From Deltaproteobacteria bacterium (GTDB lineage Bacteria; Myxococcota_A; UBA9042; PHBI01): a stretch of 38,528 bases of DNA. A program made the translations under genes and the position numbers. Location: the NCBI GenBank assembly GCA_006226565.1, contig SBGO01000684.1:1-38528 (forward strand), given 5' to 3'. The notes below the pieces were generated by a model. It was not told where the DNA came from. It saw only the letters and a list, made by a program, of their open reading frames with translations, and did no database searches. Positions 32,846-38,528 of this stretch are shown in pieces (positions within the stretch are counted from its first letter, which is position 1; each line of letters begins with the position of its first letter).

Positions 32846-35800
32846 CTAGCGGATCCAGGTCGCGGTGAAGGGGAACCAGGTCGGGTTGGGGGTCCAGAAG
32901 GGCTGGTGGAAGAACCCTTCCAGGTAGCTGCCCGCCGCGAGCCAGTGGACGCCGGCGCCGTTGGTGCACGAGTGGTACATGAGCGGCCAGCCGCCGAGCG
33001 GGGGTTGGCCCCCGCAGTCGTTGCGCGCCGCCCAGATCCAGGTGCCGGTCCAGTCACCGCCCCGGTCGGTCGCGTAGTAGTCGCCGCGGTGCCAGTCGCC
33101 GCCGGTCTGGAGCGCGGCGATGGGGTAGGTGTTGGCCGAGAAGACCGTCTGGTCCCAGGTGCCGAAGGTGGCGCCCACGGTCAGGCGCACGCCGCTCGAC
33201 ACGAGGGCGACCGCGCGGACCGTCGGCTCGGGCAGGTACTTGCACTTGTCCGCGGGGCCGAGGGTCGAGACGACGCCGATGCTCGCCGTGGGGCAGGGCG
33301 CGCCGCCCACGGACAGCAGGGTCCAGCCGCCGCCATCGGTCGTCATGTCGCAGTAGGCGTCGAAGGCGGCGACGCCCGCGGGGGCCAGGGTGTAGGTCCC
33401 ACTCTGGGTCTGGCCGAGGGTCTTGAGCGCCTGGCAGCTCGTCTGCGGGGCGGCGCAGGCGCCGTAGGCGTAGCAGTAGCCCGACGCGCAGTCGGCGTGC
33501 GAGGCGCAGCTGCCCTCGCGGACCCACACCTCCAGGCCGTTACCCCAGTGACCGTCGATGGCGTCGTCGTGCCAGGCGTTGCTGTCGTAGTTCGAGGTCG
33601 AGCTACAGACCGCGTCGAAGTTCGGTGACGCGTCGAGGTTCTGCCGCATGTGGATGTTGCCGCTGGCGGTGTAGCCGTAGTGCGAGAGGTGCATGCCGTC
33701 GAAGTTCGTCGTCCCGCCGATGTTCCCCTGGATGTCGCCGGTGCTGCAGTTCTGGGTCATCGCCACATCGGAGCAGACCTGCGTTGCGGCGTGCGCCGTC
33801 GAGGACATCCAGTCCCAGAAGCCGCCGTCGACGGTCTTGAACCACTGCGCGGTCTGCGCGGTGTCGTCCTCGGCGACGATGCGGAAGCGGGAGAGGCCCG
33901 GCTGGGCGGTGAGGCCGCTCAGGCGCGCCTGGCCGTGGGAGGCCTGGCCCGGCACGCGGTCCTTGTAGCTGGTCGCGTCGAGGAGGCTCGCCTCGTCCCG
34001 GAGGGTCCGGAACCAGCCGTCGGGCTCGTCGAGCGCCGTGTCGGCGCCCTGCCGGTGGACCTTGGCGACCAGGGTCCAGCCGCCGCCGTCGTTCACCATG
34101 TCGCAGTAGACCTCGACGGGGCCGTTGCCCGGCGGCTCGATCGTATAGGCGCCGCTGGTCGTCTGGCCGGCGTTGTAGAGGCTCAGGCAGCTGGTCTGGA
34201 CGGCGAGGCAGGTGCCGTTGGCCTGGCAGTAGCCGCTGGTGCAGTCGGCGTCGGTCGCGCAGGTGTCCTCGCGGATCCAGTAGAGGCCGGCCATCTGGGC
34301 GCCGGTCACGCCGTAGACGGTGTTCGCCTGGTGGACGTAGGCGAGGTCGTGGGTGCCGGTGGAGTAGGTGTGGGGCATCCAGGAGGCGGCGGGATCGCCG
34401 CCGACGGTCGAGGTGCCGATGATGCCGGCGTCGCCGTAGCGGCGCGCCTCGGGGACGGTCATCCCGCAGCCCGACGGGCCGAATTCGTAGCCGCCGCAGC
34501 CGCTGTAGAGGTTGCCGGTGGCGTCGCCGCCGAAGGGGAGCCAGAAGAGCTGGTCGTCGCTCGTGTCCCAGGTGATCCCGGTGGTGTTGACGAGCTCCTG
34601 GCGGTCGTCGAGGGGCCAGACGCGGGAGGCCTCGGGCGTCGTCGGGGCCTGGGTCGTGTAGCCGTTGTAGTCGAAGCCGTAGTGGACATCGAGCTCGGCG
34701 GCAGGGCTGGCCCAGGTGCCCTTGAAGAGCTGCTGACGGAGGCGGTAGTGCTTGCCGGTCACGAGGTAGTCGGCCCAGTCGGCGCTCTCGATGACGTACG
34801 ACGCCAGGTAGTCGGGCTCGGGGGTGGTGGGGGTGCCGTCGGAGGCGCCCTCGATCCACAGGGCGTTCTTGAAGTAGGCGTCGTAGGTCGTCTGGGGGAG
34901 GCCGTCGATGCCCTGGTTCTGGGTGAACTTCGCCATCAGCATCCAGCCGCCGCCGTCGTGGGCGGGATCCATGTCGCAGTAGAAGTCGCCGACGGCGACG
35001 ACGCCCGCGCCGTCGGGATCGATGGCGTAGAGGCCGCTCGTGGTCTCGCCGTGGGCGAGGGCGTCCATGCAGCTCGTGTAGACGGTCTTGCAGGTGTCGG
35101 CGACCTCGTCGCAGGACTCGGTGACCGGCGTGCAGGGGGCGCTGGCGGTGGCGCAGGCGCCGGCGGCGCAGGTCTCGGCGCCGTTGCAGAAGGCGCCATC
35201 GGAGCAGGAGGTGCCGTCGAGCTCGAGGTTGTCCTGGCAGAGACCGCTACCGTCGCAGGTGTCGGCGTGGTCGCAGGTGCTCTCGCTCGCGTCGCCGCAG
35301 GCGGCGCCGGCGGTGACGAAGCCATTGTCGGTGCAGGCGCCGAGCCCGTCGCAGGTGTCGTCGACCACGCACGCGCCCCCCTGATCGCCGCACGGCGCGC
35401 CCGCGTCCTTGTGGTTGTCGAGGCAGGCGCCGGCGCCGTCGCAGGTGTCGGCGCTGGTGCAGGCGTCGACCGTCGCGTCGCCGCAGGCGGTGCCGGCGCT
35501 GACGAAGCCGTTGTCGGTGCAGGCGCCGGCGCCGTCGCAGGTGTCCTGGACGACGCACTCGGTGCCAGCGTCGCCGCAGCTCGTGCCTGGGGGCTGGTGG
35601 TTGTCGAGGCAGGTGCCGGCGCCGTCGCAGGTGTCGGGGGCGGTGCAGGCGTCGTCGGTGGCGTCGCCGCAGGCCACGTCGAGGGCGAGGGGGGCTTGGC
35701 CGCAGGCGCCGGCGACGCAGGTGCGCTCGGTGCAGTCGTTGCCGTCGTCGGGGCAGTCGCTCGGGGCGAGGCAGGCGACGCAGCCGCCGGCGCCGTCGGG

Positions 35801-37225
35801 GAAGTAGCCGCCGTCGCAGGTCGCGCAGACCGAGTCGGTGCCGTCGGTGCAGGTCGGCGTGACGGCGCAGTTGGCGACGGCGTCGCAGACGCCGGCGCAG
35901 GCGGGGCCCCAGAAGCCGTCGGCGCAGTCGCAGGTGTCGGGGGCGGAGCAGACGCCGCCGTTCTCGCACGGGGTGGCGCACTGGGGGGTGACGCAGTTGG
36001 CGCCGTCCTCCCAGCCGGGGAGGCAGGCGCAGACGTCGGTCGCGACGCAGTCACCGCCGTGGGCGCAGGTGGGGTTGCAGATGGCCGCCGCGGCGCGCAG
36101 GACCTGCTGGGTGGCGGGCTCGTAGCGGGAGGCGATGTAGATGGGGTCCGGCCCCCAGGTGAAGGCGTTGAGGGCTGGCAGGTAGCCGAGGTAGTTCGTG
36201 GCGACGTAGCCGTCGGCCTGGTTGACGGCGTGGGTGGTGCAGACGCGCCCGGCGCTGTTGCTGATCGGGACGCTCCAGTCGATGACCGGGTAGACCGAGC
36301 CCTCGGGCAGGGGGAAGCCGTCGACGGTCTGGGGCCAGGCCCAGTCCGAAGCGGTCGCGCGGGCGACGAGGGTGCAGGCGCCCGCCGCGGCGAACTTGGT
36401 GTCGTCGAGGCCGAGGGAGATGTTCCAGTAGGCCTTGCCGGCGAAGCCCTCGACCCCGCGGAAGACCGAGGCGCCGAAGAGGTAGTCGTCGGCGTTGGCG
36501 TTGGGGGAGGCGTGGGTGTCGACGTTGCCGAGGCTGGTGGGGTCGATGCGGACGTCGGCGGCGTAGCCGGAGCACTGGATGACGATGTCGTCCATGTACA
36601 GGTAGGTCTGGCCCGCGGGCGCGCCGGTGCAGGCGAAGCCGAGGACGGCCGTCATGTCGCGGGCGCCGCTGGCGTTGTGGAGCAGCTCCAGGTCTCCGCC
36701 GCCGTCGCGCTCGCAGTCGAGCTTGGCCGAGCAGAAGATGTCGCTGAAGTTGACCGCGACGTCGAAGAAGCCCTGGCTCGCCTCCTGGACGATGGTGATG
36801 TCGAACGTCACGGCGACGTCGGTGTTCTCGACGCAGACGATCTCGCGGGTGAGCGCGTTCGGGAGGGTCGGGTTCTGGTAGGTGGCGGGATCGACGGTCC
36901 CGGAGGCGTTGGTCAGCTCGAGGAGGGTCAGCTTGACGGTGTTGACGCCGCCCGGGACGTCCGCGTCGCAGGTCCCGACGTAGGCGATCGAGCCGGCGCC
37001 GTCGCCGTACTGCGACGACGTCAGGGTCTTCGTCCAGACGGTCTCACCCGCGCCGGCGGCGGCGTTCGTCACCTCGAGGGTGTAGGTCGCGTCGGTCACG
37101 CCCTCGAGGCTCAGGGCGGCCACGTCGATGCCCAGACGCCCGGTCGGCCCCGGCGCCGGGGTCTCCTGCAAACAGCCGGAGAGTGCGATGGAGAGCGCCA
37201 AGCCGGCGCCGAGGATGCGACTCAC
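32846..37225 (-). CDS. Modular surface lipoprotein C: shared N-module, EGF-like and Cys-rich repeats, three fibrinogen-like domains
   Basis: The product is 1459 residues from GTG 37225; the frame is open upstream but the lipobox (ALSGC, Cys18) fits this start. Residues 27-375 are the module shared with the genes at 14753-17746 and 24657-27041 (YGDGAGSIAYVGTCDAD, FFDVAVNFSDIFCSAKLDC, YWNISLG). Then come two EGF-like units (CNPTCAHGGDCVATDVC and CATPCENGGVCSAPDTC, 383-443), a Cys-rich repeat region (515-690) and three fibrinogen C-terminal-like domains, at about 718-985, 1012-1237 and 1263-1459. Each of these begins SC-x-L/A and carries YCDM-x-DGGGW (for example 1040-1050). TATAGT (37305-37310 on this strand) could be its -10 box. 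Cell-surface binding of a ligand or glycan is inferred. Confidence 0.85.
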   Translation of the reverse strand: MSRILGAGLALSIALSGCLQETPAPGPTGRLGIDVAALSLEGVTDATYTLEVTNAAAGAGETVWTKTLTSSQYGDGAGSIAYVGTCDADVPGGVNTVKLTLLELTNASGTVDPATYQNPTLPNALTREIVCVENTDVAVTFDITIVQEASQGFFDVAVNFSDIFCSAKLDCERDGGGDLELLHNASGARDMTAVLGFACTGAPAGQTYLYMDDIVIQCSGYAADVRIDPTSLGNVDTHASPNANADDYLFGASVFRGVEGFAGKAYWNISLGLDDTKFAAAGACTLVARATASDWAWPQTVDGFPLPEGSVYPVIDWSVPISNSAGRVCTTHAVNQADGYVATNYLGYLPALNAFTWGPDPIYIASRYEPATQQVLRAAAAICNPTCAHGGDCVATDVCACLPGWEDGANCVTPQCATPCENGGVCSAPDTCDCADGFWGPACAGVCDAVANCAVTPTCTDGTDSVCATCDGGYFPDGAGGCVACLAPSDCPDDGNDCTERTCVAGACGQAPLALDVACGDATDDACTAPDTCDGAGTCLDNHQPPGTSCGDAGTECVVQDTCDGAGACTDNGFVSAGTACGDATVDACTSADTCDGAGACLDNHKDAGAPCGDQGGACVVDDTCDGLGACTDNGFVTAGAACGDASESTCDHADTCDGSGLCQDNLELDGTSCSDGAFCNGAETCAAGACATASAPCTPVTESCDEVADTCKTVYTSCMDALAHGETTSGLYAIDPDGAGVVAVGDFYCDMDPAHDGGGWMLMAKFTQNQGIDGLPQTTYDAYFKNALWIEGASDGTPTTPEPDYLASYVIESADWADYLVTGKHYRLRQQLFKGTWASPAAELDVHYGFDYNGYTTQAPTTPEASRVWPLDDRQELVNTTGITWDTSDDQLFWLPFGGDATGNLYSGCGGYEFGPSGCGMTVPEARRYGDAGIIGTSTVGGDPAASWMPHTYSTGTHDLAYVHQANTVYGVTGAQMAGLYWIREDTCATDADCTSGYCQANGTCLAVQTSCLSLYNAGQTTSGAYTIEPPGNGPVEVYCDMVNDGGGWTLVAKVHRQGADTALDEPDGWFRTLRDEASLLDATSYKDRVPGQASHGQARLSGLTAQPGLSRFRIVAEDDTAQTAQWFKTVDGGFWDWMSSTAHAATQVCSDVAMTQNCSTGDIQGNIGGTTNFDGMHLSHYGYTASGNIHMRQNLDASPNFDAVCSSTSNYDSNAWHDDAIDGHWGNGLEVWVREGSCASHADCASGYCYAYGACAAPQTSCQALKTLGQTQSGTYTLAPAGVAAFDAYCDMTTDGGGWTLLSVGGAPCPTASIGVVSTLGPADKCKYLPEPTVRAVALVSSGVRLTVGATFGTWDQTVFSANTYPIAALQTGGDWHRGDYYATDRGGDWTGTWIWAARNDCGGQPPLGGWPLMYHSCTNGAGVHWLAAGSYLEGFFHQPFWTPNPTWFPFTATWIR
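32849..35074 (-). repeat. Three tandem fibrinogen-like domains
   Basis: The units at about 34256-35074, 33506-34192 and 32849-33439 each begin with a cysteine, then TTSGLYAIDPDG / TTSGAYTIEPPG / TQSGTYTLAPAG, then YCDM and GGGWMLM / GGGWTLV / GGGWTLL. Short Cys linkers (CATDADCTSGYC, CASHADCASGYC) separate them. In animals such domains bind sugars, acetylated groups or proteins, often with calcium. Confidence 0.8.
35156..35683 (-). repeat. Cys-rich DTCDGxGxC repeats in lipoprotein C
   Basis: About six units of 27-32 residues carry the pattern CGD...C..ADTCDGAGACLDN, alternating between two slightly different forms. Several are near-identical in DNA as well, which suggests expansion by slippage or recombination. 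The spacing of cysteines and aspartates suits small disulphide- and metal-stabilised knots. Confidence 0.7.
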
Positions 37226-37697
37226 GGGGACCCCCGAGTCTCCGCGCGCGAGGAGACCGTAGGCGTGCTGTTGGGTGGGCGCCTGCAGAACCGAAGGCGG
37301 CCTCACTATACTTCACTTCTCGGCACTGCACAGTCCGAGGCGCGAGACCTCGGTTACGGGCCGCCATTGGTCTCTACACAGCGGATGTGTCGCGCCGCGG
37401 CATGATCTCGCGATCCGCGCAGGATCGGCCGGCCGAGGGCGGTCGCAGGGGCCGCGCCAGCTTCGCCGCCAAGAGGCCGGCGCTCGGCCAGGGGCCGTCA
37501 GGGGGCGGTCGGCGCCGCGGTTTCTTCTCGGCGCGCGATCTGGTCTAGTGACCGCGCCAGCACGCGCGCTGAGCTCACGGCGCCTCCGGCTGACCGGGCC
37601 GCGGACCGAAGCGAGTGCCGGGCGTTGTGCTCGGAGCGCGGTTGGTCGACCATCGAGCCTCCCCCGTCACTCCTCACCGTCACCCCGGAGTAGACCC
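37226..37697. other. 472-bp gap without a convincing gene
   Basis: The gap separates lipoprotein C (-) from the Thr-rich protein gene (+). It contains the ACTATA at 37305-37310 that reads TATAGT on the minus strand. An open frame from 37275 runs into the Thr-rich gene but has shadow-like Arg/Pro composition before 37698. No tRNA, repeat or strong hairpin was seen. Confidence 0.4.
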
Positions 37698-38105
37698 ATG
37701 CGCTCGCCAAAGCACCTCGTCCTCGCCGCCCTCTCGCTCGCCCTCGTGCTCGCCCTGCCCCACGGCGCCTTGAGCGCGCCGGAGACGGCCAAGCCGTTCA
37801 AGGCGCGGTTGAACATCGACGGCAACAAGAAGCCGATCCAGGCGTCCCTCGTCCGCCTCGTCGTGATGAGCAACACCGACAACGCCCCGCAGTGCTCGAC
37901 CACCACCGAGCCGACGGTCGGCGGCGGGACCATCACGACGACCAAGAGCGGTGGCACCACCACCGAGACGATCTCGTACCCGGGCGGGCGGACCCGGACG
38001 ACCACGACCTCGCCTGACGGCACCACGACGACCACGGACACCATCCCCGACGGCGAGGGCGGGTCGACGACGACCACGACGACCACCAAGCCCGACGAGA
38101 AGTAG
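37698..38105 (+). CDS. Small secreted Thr-rich protein
   Basis: The product is 135 residues; GGAG eight bases before the ATG supports the start. A signal peptide ends near GALSA (residue 27). Residues 28-66 form a small basic segment with one Cys (KARLNIDGNKKPIQASLVRL). From about residue 66 the chain is low-complexity Thr with Gly/Ser/Asp/Pro (GGGTITTTKSGGTTTET, then DGTTTTTDT, then GGSTTTTTTTK). Such tails are extended and often glycosylated or wall-spanning. No family is recognised, and a role as a surface spacer is a guess. It is followed after 85 bases by the tRNA gene. Confidence 0.65.
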   Translation: MRSPKHLVLAALSLALVLALPHGALSAPETAKPFKARLNIDGNKKPIQASLVRLVVMSNTDNAPQCSTTTEPTVGGGTITTTKSGGTTTETISYPGGRTRTTTTSPDGTTTTTDTIPDGEGGSTTTTTTTKPDEK

Positions 38106-38190: not shown

Positions 38191-38265
38191 CATGGAGTGG
38201 CCCGGCGGTAGGGCGACCGGCTTGGGACCGGTAGGGCGCGGGTTCGAATCCCGCCTCCATGTCCA
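38191..38265 (+). tRNA. tRNA-Pro (anticodon UGG), atypical
   Basis: The cloverleaf is complete. The acceptor arms CATGGAG and CTCCATG pair over seven bases. D stem GCCC/GGGC closes a seven-base loop. Anticodon stem ACCGG/CCGGT closes loop CTTGGGA, giving anticodon TGG (Pro, reading CCA/CCG by wobble) with G37. Variable loop AGGGC. T stem GCGGG/CCCGC with TTCGAAT. CCA is encoded. Oddities: the base before CCA is T instead of the A usual in bacterial tRNA-Pro, position 14 is G instead of A (which normally pairs with U8), and the D loop is short, so the gene is 72 bases plus CCA. It may be a minor or specialised tRNA. Confidence 0.8.
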
Positions 38266-38528
38266 GACCTCGGAGAAGTTCAGCGGTGAACGCCCGGCTC
38301 GTAGCCGGGAGGACTTCAGCTTCGAGGTGCGCGCCCGCGCCTCGACCGGTGCCGTGAGCGCGCCGGCAGCGTTGAGCCCCGCCGGCCGCGCCGGAGCCCC
38401 CGGCCCGGGAATTCGGTCAGAGGACGCCCTCGTCCGCACCGGGCGCCGAAGCGCCCGCGGAGCGTGACTGAACCACCGGCGCCGAGGCGCCGGGCGACAT
38501 CAGCCGGCGGTGCCGAGGAGCGCCTTGG
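38266..38528. other. Region after the tRNA: tRNA-like remnant and GC-rich hairpins
   Basis: At 38271-38339 a sequence resembles tRNA D and anticodon arms but lacks T and acceptor pairing (see findings). Perfect hairpins lie at 38440-38457 (CGGGCGC/GCGCCCG) and 38476-38493 (CCGGCGCC/GGCGCCGG), and a related GGTGCCGAGGAGCGCC at 38509-38524. On the minus strand, 38500-38528 could be the last codons of a gene entering from outside (KALLGTAG then TGA). No complete gene was seen. Confidence 0.4.

Follow-up and report, generated by a model that had tools for sequence, protein, structure and literature searches.

Results

A tandem of tRNA-like elements at the end of the window

The window analysed here, i.e. 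the whole stretch of 38,528 nucleotides formed by contig SBGO01000684.1 of a deltaproteobacterial draft genome, carries a tRNA-like element on the forward strand close to its end (element 1, 38191-38262), followed by an encoded CCA (38263-38265). ARAGORN called a tRNA-Pro(TGG) at 38191-38265 (+), and RF00005, the sole Rfam family matched in the window at the gathering score, matched positions 38191-38262 with 64.7 bits. All stem pairs (7+4+5+5) were formed in the ARAGORN drawing. The element begins with C1-G72 and has the anticodon TGG (38223-38225), a variable loop AGGGC and a T loop TTCGAAT of the normal type. The initial annotation, which described a perfectly paired tRNA-Pro(UGG) with T before CCA, G at position 14 and a short D loop, was borne out in all of these points: the discriminator at position 73 (38262) is T (U73), position 14 (38204) is G, and the D loop (GGCGGTA) is 7 nt long.

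The annotation had regarded A73 as a prolyl identity base and U73 as abnormal. This agrees with a review stating that A73 is strictly conserved across bacterial tRNAPro (PMC9976931); the same review gives C1-G72 as a mark of tRNA-Pro in bacteria and A73 as a further need of prolyl-tRNA synthetase (ProRS). The poor charging that was suggested is also plausible, since an A73U change in a bacterial-type tRNAPro cost about 31-fold with one enzyme (PMC12152171). When element 1 was compared with the table of bacterial proline determinants in the review, G72, G15-C48, G49, G35, G36 and G37 were found to be kept, and the listed determinants that are absent are A73 and U17a only, the 7-nt D loop having no position 17a. 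Element 1 further has U33, U34 and A21.

A second tRNA-like element (element 2, 38268-38328, +), absent from the initial annotation, lies directly downstream with a spacing of 5 nt. It was recognised by a covariance model (R1), by pairwise alignment and in a tree. Its acceptor stem of 8 bp, the ends of which were set by eye, begins with C1-G72. The D arm is GTTC-AGCGGT-GAAC and the anticodon arm is CCCGG-CTCGTAG-CCGGG (anticodon CGT); the T arm is absent, and T stands at the place of position 73. R1, which was built from 14 other elements with the window held out, gave 40.2 bits at 38269-38327, the T arm being deleted in the alignment. In pairwise alignment element 2 scored best, at 18, with an element of Nocardia concava; the top-scoring tRNA of its own genome reached 2. 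Promoter and terminator scans around the pair found nothing.

Two ORFs upstream of the pair may be mentioned in passing. The ORF at 37698-38105 (+) encodes 135 aa with a signal-peptide-like start and a threonine-rich sequence, and had no Pfam match. The ORF at 32846-37306 (-) encodes 1486 aa and matched the fibrinogen C-terminal domain, here in a bacterium.

Ordinary tRNA-Pro genes and the rarity of U73

The window's genome is a draft of 7.71 Mb in 780 contigs, with 94.8% completeness and 3.83% estimated contamination. It has 49 tRNA-family matches, and ARAGORN was run on DNA covering all of them. The initial annotation had proposed a check for another tRNA-Pro(UGG). Contig 15 was found to carry an ordinary copy, which has A73, A14 and a D loop of 9 nt; a tRNA-Pro(GGG), likewise with A73, lies on contig 76. 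Element 1 is therefore not the sole and normal tRNA-Pro(UGG) of this genome, and its features are not those of every tRNA-Pro of the genus, since A73 was found both in the genome's own copy and in copies of the class. The sole complete ProRS found in the genome is of family I (contig C635, 489.5 bits). A family-II-like ProRS fragment, cut by a contig end, was also seen (C129:37687-38691; 125 bits, below the cut-off); judged by eye, its motif 3 region seems altered.

A pattern for tRNA-Pro(UGG) with G72 and U73 matched nine stretches in genome_contigs (84,980 species). According to ARAGORN, five of these are tRNAs, a lower bound because the pattern fixes GGTA and other bases, and four are not. 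The five come from Nocardia concava (L066), Saccharopolyspora spinosa (L067), Clostridia, Sphingomonadales and Bacilli. The last three have ordinary backbones (L068:3637-3709, L071:16-92 and L072:2288-2364, respectively), as a side observation. The U73 pattern searches demanded an encoded CCA, so that few tRNAs were visible to them. A pattern that left position 73 free but required CA at 75-76 was run on 52 genomes of the window's class and found a matching tRNA-Pro(UGG) in only 11 of them; A73 was present at 11 of the 12 sites, and T73 in the window only. The window's tRNA cloverleaf with U73 is more than a product of chance.

The short D loop of the window RNA is also found in the N. concava and S. 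spinosa copies. Each of these two has an adjoining second tRNA of the same build and the same acceptor type with U73, the anticodons being those of Lys in N. concava and Gly in S. spinosa. A blastn search with the window tRNA yielded nothing beyond weak matches to tRNAs in general, which lends no support to a phage or plasmid origin; a DNA search for a shared neighbourhood in three genomes (the window's own and two others) gave only a 25-base match in one of them (G002). This match was rejected as a conserved neighbourhood; it lies inside an apparent coding sequence and was taken as chance. Apart from these, a tRNA-Pro(UGG) that combines U73 and a 7-nt D loop with a backbone closer to the ordinary type is carried by two IMG/VR contigs (L055:499-573 and L056:11650-11724).

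A family of tRNA-like RNAs upstream of one protein gene

In both N. concava and S. spinosa, a gene of one and the same kind, hereafter the partner gene, starts some 30 nt after the tRNA pair. It encodes a protein of roughly 700-810 aa without a recognised domain (779 aa in the example P0001). At all 24 loci that were reached via the protein, in Actinomycetota and in the window's phylum, at least one tRNA-like element was present upstream on the same strand; this count leaves out the N. concava and S. spinosa loci, which had been found via the tRNA. Our own scan gave 33 elements at the 24 loci, with two or more at nine of them, and family members other than those of the window occur singly, in pairs or in threes. 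R1 was then scanned over 332,353 bases around 16 loci. It gave 24 matches at E up to 0.001 (39.7 to 93.7 bits), some of them elements that are in the model by construction; by their coordinates, each lay a short way upstream of the partner gene, at no more than about 340 nt from it, and there were none elsewhere. The distance from position 73 of the last element to the start codon was 1-112 nt in 23 loci (median 13), where the start codons were partly chosen by hand and the 112-nt gap, at L092, holds a further degenerate element.

For the family set, candidates were kept if they had C1 and an anticodon loop starting with CT, which left 38 elements including that of the window. Five low-scoring candidates were dropped; they overlap no real element. 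Our scan had missed one element at L076 and the degenerate one at L092, and R1 found both (L076, L117). The first pair, 1-72, is C-G in all 38 kept elements, C1 being the filter. Position 73 in the 37 elements besides the window is U in 19, G in 12 and C in 6, and is never A. The anticodon loop has 7 nt in 32 of the 38 elements and 6 nt in the other six. Among the 32 with 7-nt loops there are 19 different anticodons, including UUA and UCA, which correspond to stop codons. G14 was seen in 4 of the 37 other elements, and six of the 38, the window included, have CCA after position 73.

The fold was analysed on 15 elements of equal length, in which 99.4% of the pair cells form and 13 of the 21 pairs change on both sides. 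The covariation score was 0.498, against 0.159 (sd 0.022) after shuffling, and none of 500 shuffled sets reached it. The tRNA elbow is held by the contacts G18-psi55, 19-56 and 15-48 (PMC4810234). Positions 18 and 55 in the 38 elements, with position 18 assigned by an ad hoc rule, are G/U in 21, A/G in 15 and A/U in one, with one unassigned and no case of G18 with G55; this joint switch has a Fisher p of about 2e-9, uncorrected for kinship. Positions 15 and 48 are G-C in 35 elements, A-U in one and other combinations in two, and all 38 have C at position 56. Since the pairing, the covariation and the elbow contacts are kept, the L shape is preserved while the anticodon is free. At the level of sequence, then, this is a family that keeps the tRNA fold but not the anticodon, with its members directly upstream of one partner gene on the same strand. 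In an Rfam search of ten loci the elements matched the general tRNA family only, besides one unrelated match. An Acido-Lenti-1 RNA match (38.6 bits; gathering score 37) was noted downstream of a partner gene at L090:4234-4280.

The partner protein

The partner is distributed sparsely. Its profile matched 4 of 396 genomes in the phylum of Saccharopolyspora, that genome included. With a limit of E 0.01 it also matched 21 of 377 genomes in the phylum to which the window belongs, probably Myxococcota; 15 of these matches were strong, and the six weak ones (E 8.8e-6 to 0.0072) were set aside. One of the strong matches, in G285, is split over two contigs. A tblastn search of 72,556 plasmid records found the partner on six actinobacterial plasmids. 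In viral contigs, none of the 26 pattern matches obtained with the partner profile was confirmed, and no contig matched the backbone patterns of the RNA family.

When 17 partner proteins were searched against Pfam, the best E-value of any family was 0.065, and there was no TROVE match. Searches against Pfam, NCBIfam and PADLOC together gave no match of weight, and no relative was found in the PDB up to E 10. The AlphaFold2 model of the partner, made from two sequences, had a mean pLDDT of 38, too low to be of use. The 20 neighbouring proteins that were scanned were mixed, with no repeated neighbour and no RNA-repair gene among them. A YhcG-type PDDEXK nuclease (YhcG_C; L119:8172-9233) and an HNH nuclease (L116:11466-12389) were seen beside partner genes; these are possibly defence neighbourhoods.

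The window pair compared with the family

R1 scored element 1 at 88.8 bits, against 67.3 bits for the next tRNA scored from its own genome, the ordinary tRNA-Pro(UGG); the sources of this comparison did not include the truncated tRNA C403. In pairwise alignment the window RNA was 89% identical to the S. spinosa element (score 53), whereas the best tRNA of its own genome, again the ordinary tRNA-Pro(UGG), reached a score of 22 with 72% identity. In a FastTree phylogeny, from which the genome's own Leu, Ser and Tyr-type tRNAs and one truncated call were left out, the 38 elements and element 2 grouped apart from 35 own tRNAs with an SH-like support of 0.937. The window shows C1-G72 with a non-A discriminator (U73) and, in elements 1 and 2, the tandem arrangement; no partner gene was found directly downstream.

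These comparisons of sequence leave little doubt that the RNA pair of the window belongs to the tRNA look-alike family, and element 1 is probably not mainly a decoding tRNA-Pro. Its description in the initial annotation as a mis-marked tRNA-Pro(UGG) thus holds for the odd identity positions and is incomplete where it implies a lone tRNA-Pro, as R1 places the element in a family of which a second member adjoins it. The window contains a member of the RNA family and not an intact module. No partner gene was found in the window's genome with the profile, and a single partner protein as query gave E 0.19. The last 200 bases of the contig (38329-38528), where the partner gene would be expected, showed no trace of it in a six-frame hmmsearch with the profile (best E 0.96).

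Discussion

The pair may be compared with several known systems. Element 1 resembles ordinary bacterial tRNA-Pro (RF00005) in its cloverleaf, C1-G72, G15-C48, G49, G35, G36, G37, normal T loop and CCA. It differs in U73 instead of A73, G14 instead of A14 and a 7-nt D loop without U17a, as well as in its tandem neighbour without a T arm and in its relatives, which carry any anticodon and have a fixed protein neighbour. The tRNAProX/ProRSx system of Streptomyces and Kitasatospora is similar in its prolyl acceptor features, its odd identity and its link to a protein gene. The marks described for tRNAProX, namely an Ala, Asn or Thr anticodon with A34, together with A33, A15-A48 and G21 (PMC11415595), are not those of element 1, which has UGG, U33, U34, G15-C48 and A21. 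Unlike ProRSx, the partner of the present family matches no Pfam or NCBIfam model and is not a recognisable synthetase. A pairing of the ProRSx type was considered for the window itself and rejected, as no synthetase was found in 20 window ORFs scanned with Pfam and the marks of tRNAProX are missing.

The YrlA Y RNA with Rsr, a relative of Ro60, is perhaps alike in being a non-coding RNA with a tRNA-like domain that is encoded beside a protein (PMC7790460). The RNAs of the present family, in contrast, consist of the whole tRNA shape only; the partner, unlike Rsr, has no TROVE match in Pfam above the cut-off, and the scanned neighbours contain no RNA-repair genes. It is possible that the partner is a divergent TROVE relative missed by Pfam. 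The pseudo-tRNA tRNAOther of Bacillus cereus is likewise a tRNA-like RNA that is poorly charged and acts outside translation (PMC3399842). It differs in being a single RNA within a longer regulatory RNA, and the account of it given in that report describes no such partner protein.

Several other explanations of element 1 have to be weighed. It might be a genuine second tRNA-Pro(UGG) that decodes CCN and is less well charged owing to U73. The perfect cloverleaf, the normal T loop and the encoded CCA fit this idea, and because most prolyl determinants are kept (G72, G15-C48, G49, G35, G36, G37), element 1 could be weakly charged with proline and decode; the genome's ProRS is of family I, and the 31-fold loss upon A73U was observed with one enzyme of this family and is not a loss to zero (PMC12152171). 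Nor does element 1 have beside it the partner gene, the family's most constant trait. We nevertheless consider this explanation unlikely, given that the held-out R1 score greatly exceeds those of all own tRNAs scored, that the tandem neighbour has no T arm, that the anticodons of relatives sharing its acceptor end stand for many amino acids and for stop codons, and that a tRNA-Pro(UGG) with A73 already serves the genome. A device that misreads proline codons, by receiving another amino acid such as cysteine or glycine through U73 or from a special synthetase, seems very improbable. U73 is indeed a major determinant of bacterial tRNACys and tRNAGly (PMC9976931), tRNAProX/ProRSx is an existing device of this kind (PMC11415595, PMC10365949), and the genome holds a fragment of a second, family-II-like ProRS. 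The fragment lies on another contig, however, and the synthetase-free Pfam scan of the 20 window ORFs, the lack of any readable tRNAProX mark, and the absence from element 1 of the Gly determinants G1-C72, C2-G71, C35 and C36 and of the Cys anticodon GCA (PMC9976931) all speak against such a device.

The elements could also be leaders that act only in cis, i.e. tRNA-shaped structures controlling translation or processing of the partner mRNA without a separate RNA, in which case the window copy would be a dead leader. All elements lie on the strand of the gene, 12 of the 23 loci have the start codon 1-13 nt behind the last element, and a Shine-Dalgarno-like motif was found in 4 of the 23, with some start codons chosen by hand. 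In the other 11 loci, on the other hand, the gap is 19-112 nt, two or more elements at 9 of 24 loci would be unneeded for a single control structure, and the tRNA shape is preserved in full, with the elbow. We regard the cis-only leader as doubtful, though an alternative of some weight. A tRNA of phage type, or one otherwise transferred without a link to the family, would recall the two IMG/VR contigs with U73 and 7-nt D loops described above. The Pfam scan of 20 window ORFs revealed no phage gene, the viral contigs contained neither a match to the family patterns nor a relative of the partner profile, and R1 and the tree assign the RNA to the family; such an origin is hardly credible. It is also very improbable that the contig strayed by a binning error from an organism with an intact module, even though contamination of this draft genome is estimated at 3.83%. 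In GC content and tetranucleotides the window correlated with nine loci of its own genome at r 0.915-0.972, a range into which two foreign loci (0.937 and 0.951) also fell.

We therefore favour, with moderate confidence in the explanation as a whole, the reading that elements 1 and 2 represent two tRNA-like RNAs in tandem, orphaned from their partner, and not an ordinary tRNA-Pro. For the family itself, the anatomy of the loci suggests that the RNAs would be transcribed as the 5' leader of the partner gene, fold into the tRNA L shape and have their ends cut by tRNA-processing enzymes. They would be charged little or not at all, since C1-G72 is joined by a base that is not A at position 73; as the family keeps C1-G72 and avoids A73, charging would be blocked across anticodons. 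Removal of the RNAs would leave the partner mRNA almost leaderless, and the partner protein would bind them. That the family works as such an RNA-protein pair is a suggestion that we make with considerable reserve.

A tentative hypothesis can be put forward. The loci may represent a new RNA-protein module made up of one to three uncharged, L-shaped tRNA mimics with exchangeable anticodons, the processing of which would be tied to expression of the large partner, and the partner may bind the mimics and sense or attack the tRNA pool; the mimics might serve, for instance, as bait for tRNA-cutting enzymes. The module would be spread patchily over at least two phyla and actinobacterial megaplasmids, with the window as an orphaned copy. 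In the open part of PubMed Central, i.e. outside subscription journals and preprints, we recognised no description of such RNAs.

Under the labels that tRNA finders give them (Pro, Gly, Arg, Lys, Ser, Leu and others), the RNAs of this family are counted towards decoding. Should they prove to be mimics linked with a single protein, these RNA genes would form a class wrongly filed among ordinary tRNAs. A protein family without a recognised domain would at the same time gain a lead, in that it would probably handle tRNA-shaped RNA. The purpose of an uncharged tRNA shape with a free anticodon could be tested in the culturable S. spinosa, N. concava and Streptomyces yangpuensis.

As regards the window, the pair is called orphan because no partner copy was found in its genome, from which the partner gene appears to have been lost. 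The gene could instead be present but unassembled, the genome being a draft and the contig ending 200 nt after element 2. Most likely the pair is either a relic or acts as an RNA without the partner, and we lean moderately towards a relic, to which the lack of a T arm in element 2 points. A weak second element alone is no sign of a dead module, since the second element at the intact locus L117 is weak too, being partly degenerate (39.7 bits with R1).

A separate observation was made at a locus of another genome of the window's class (L103 in G043), which is among the 15 strong matches of the partner profile. There the partner gene, preceded by a tRNA-like element that looks intact, contains two in-frame stops; this module is decaying.
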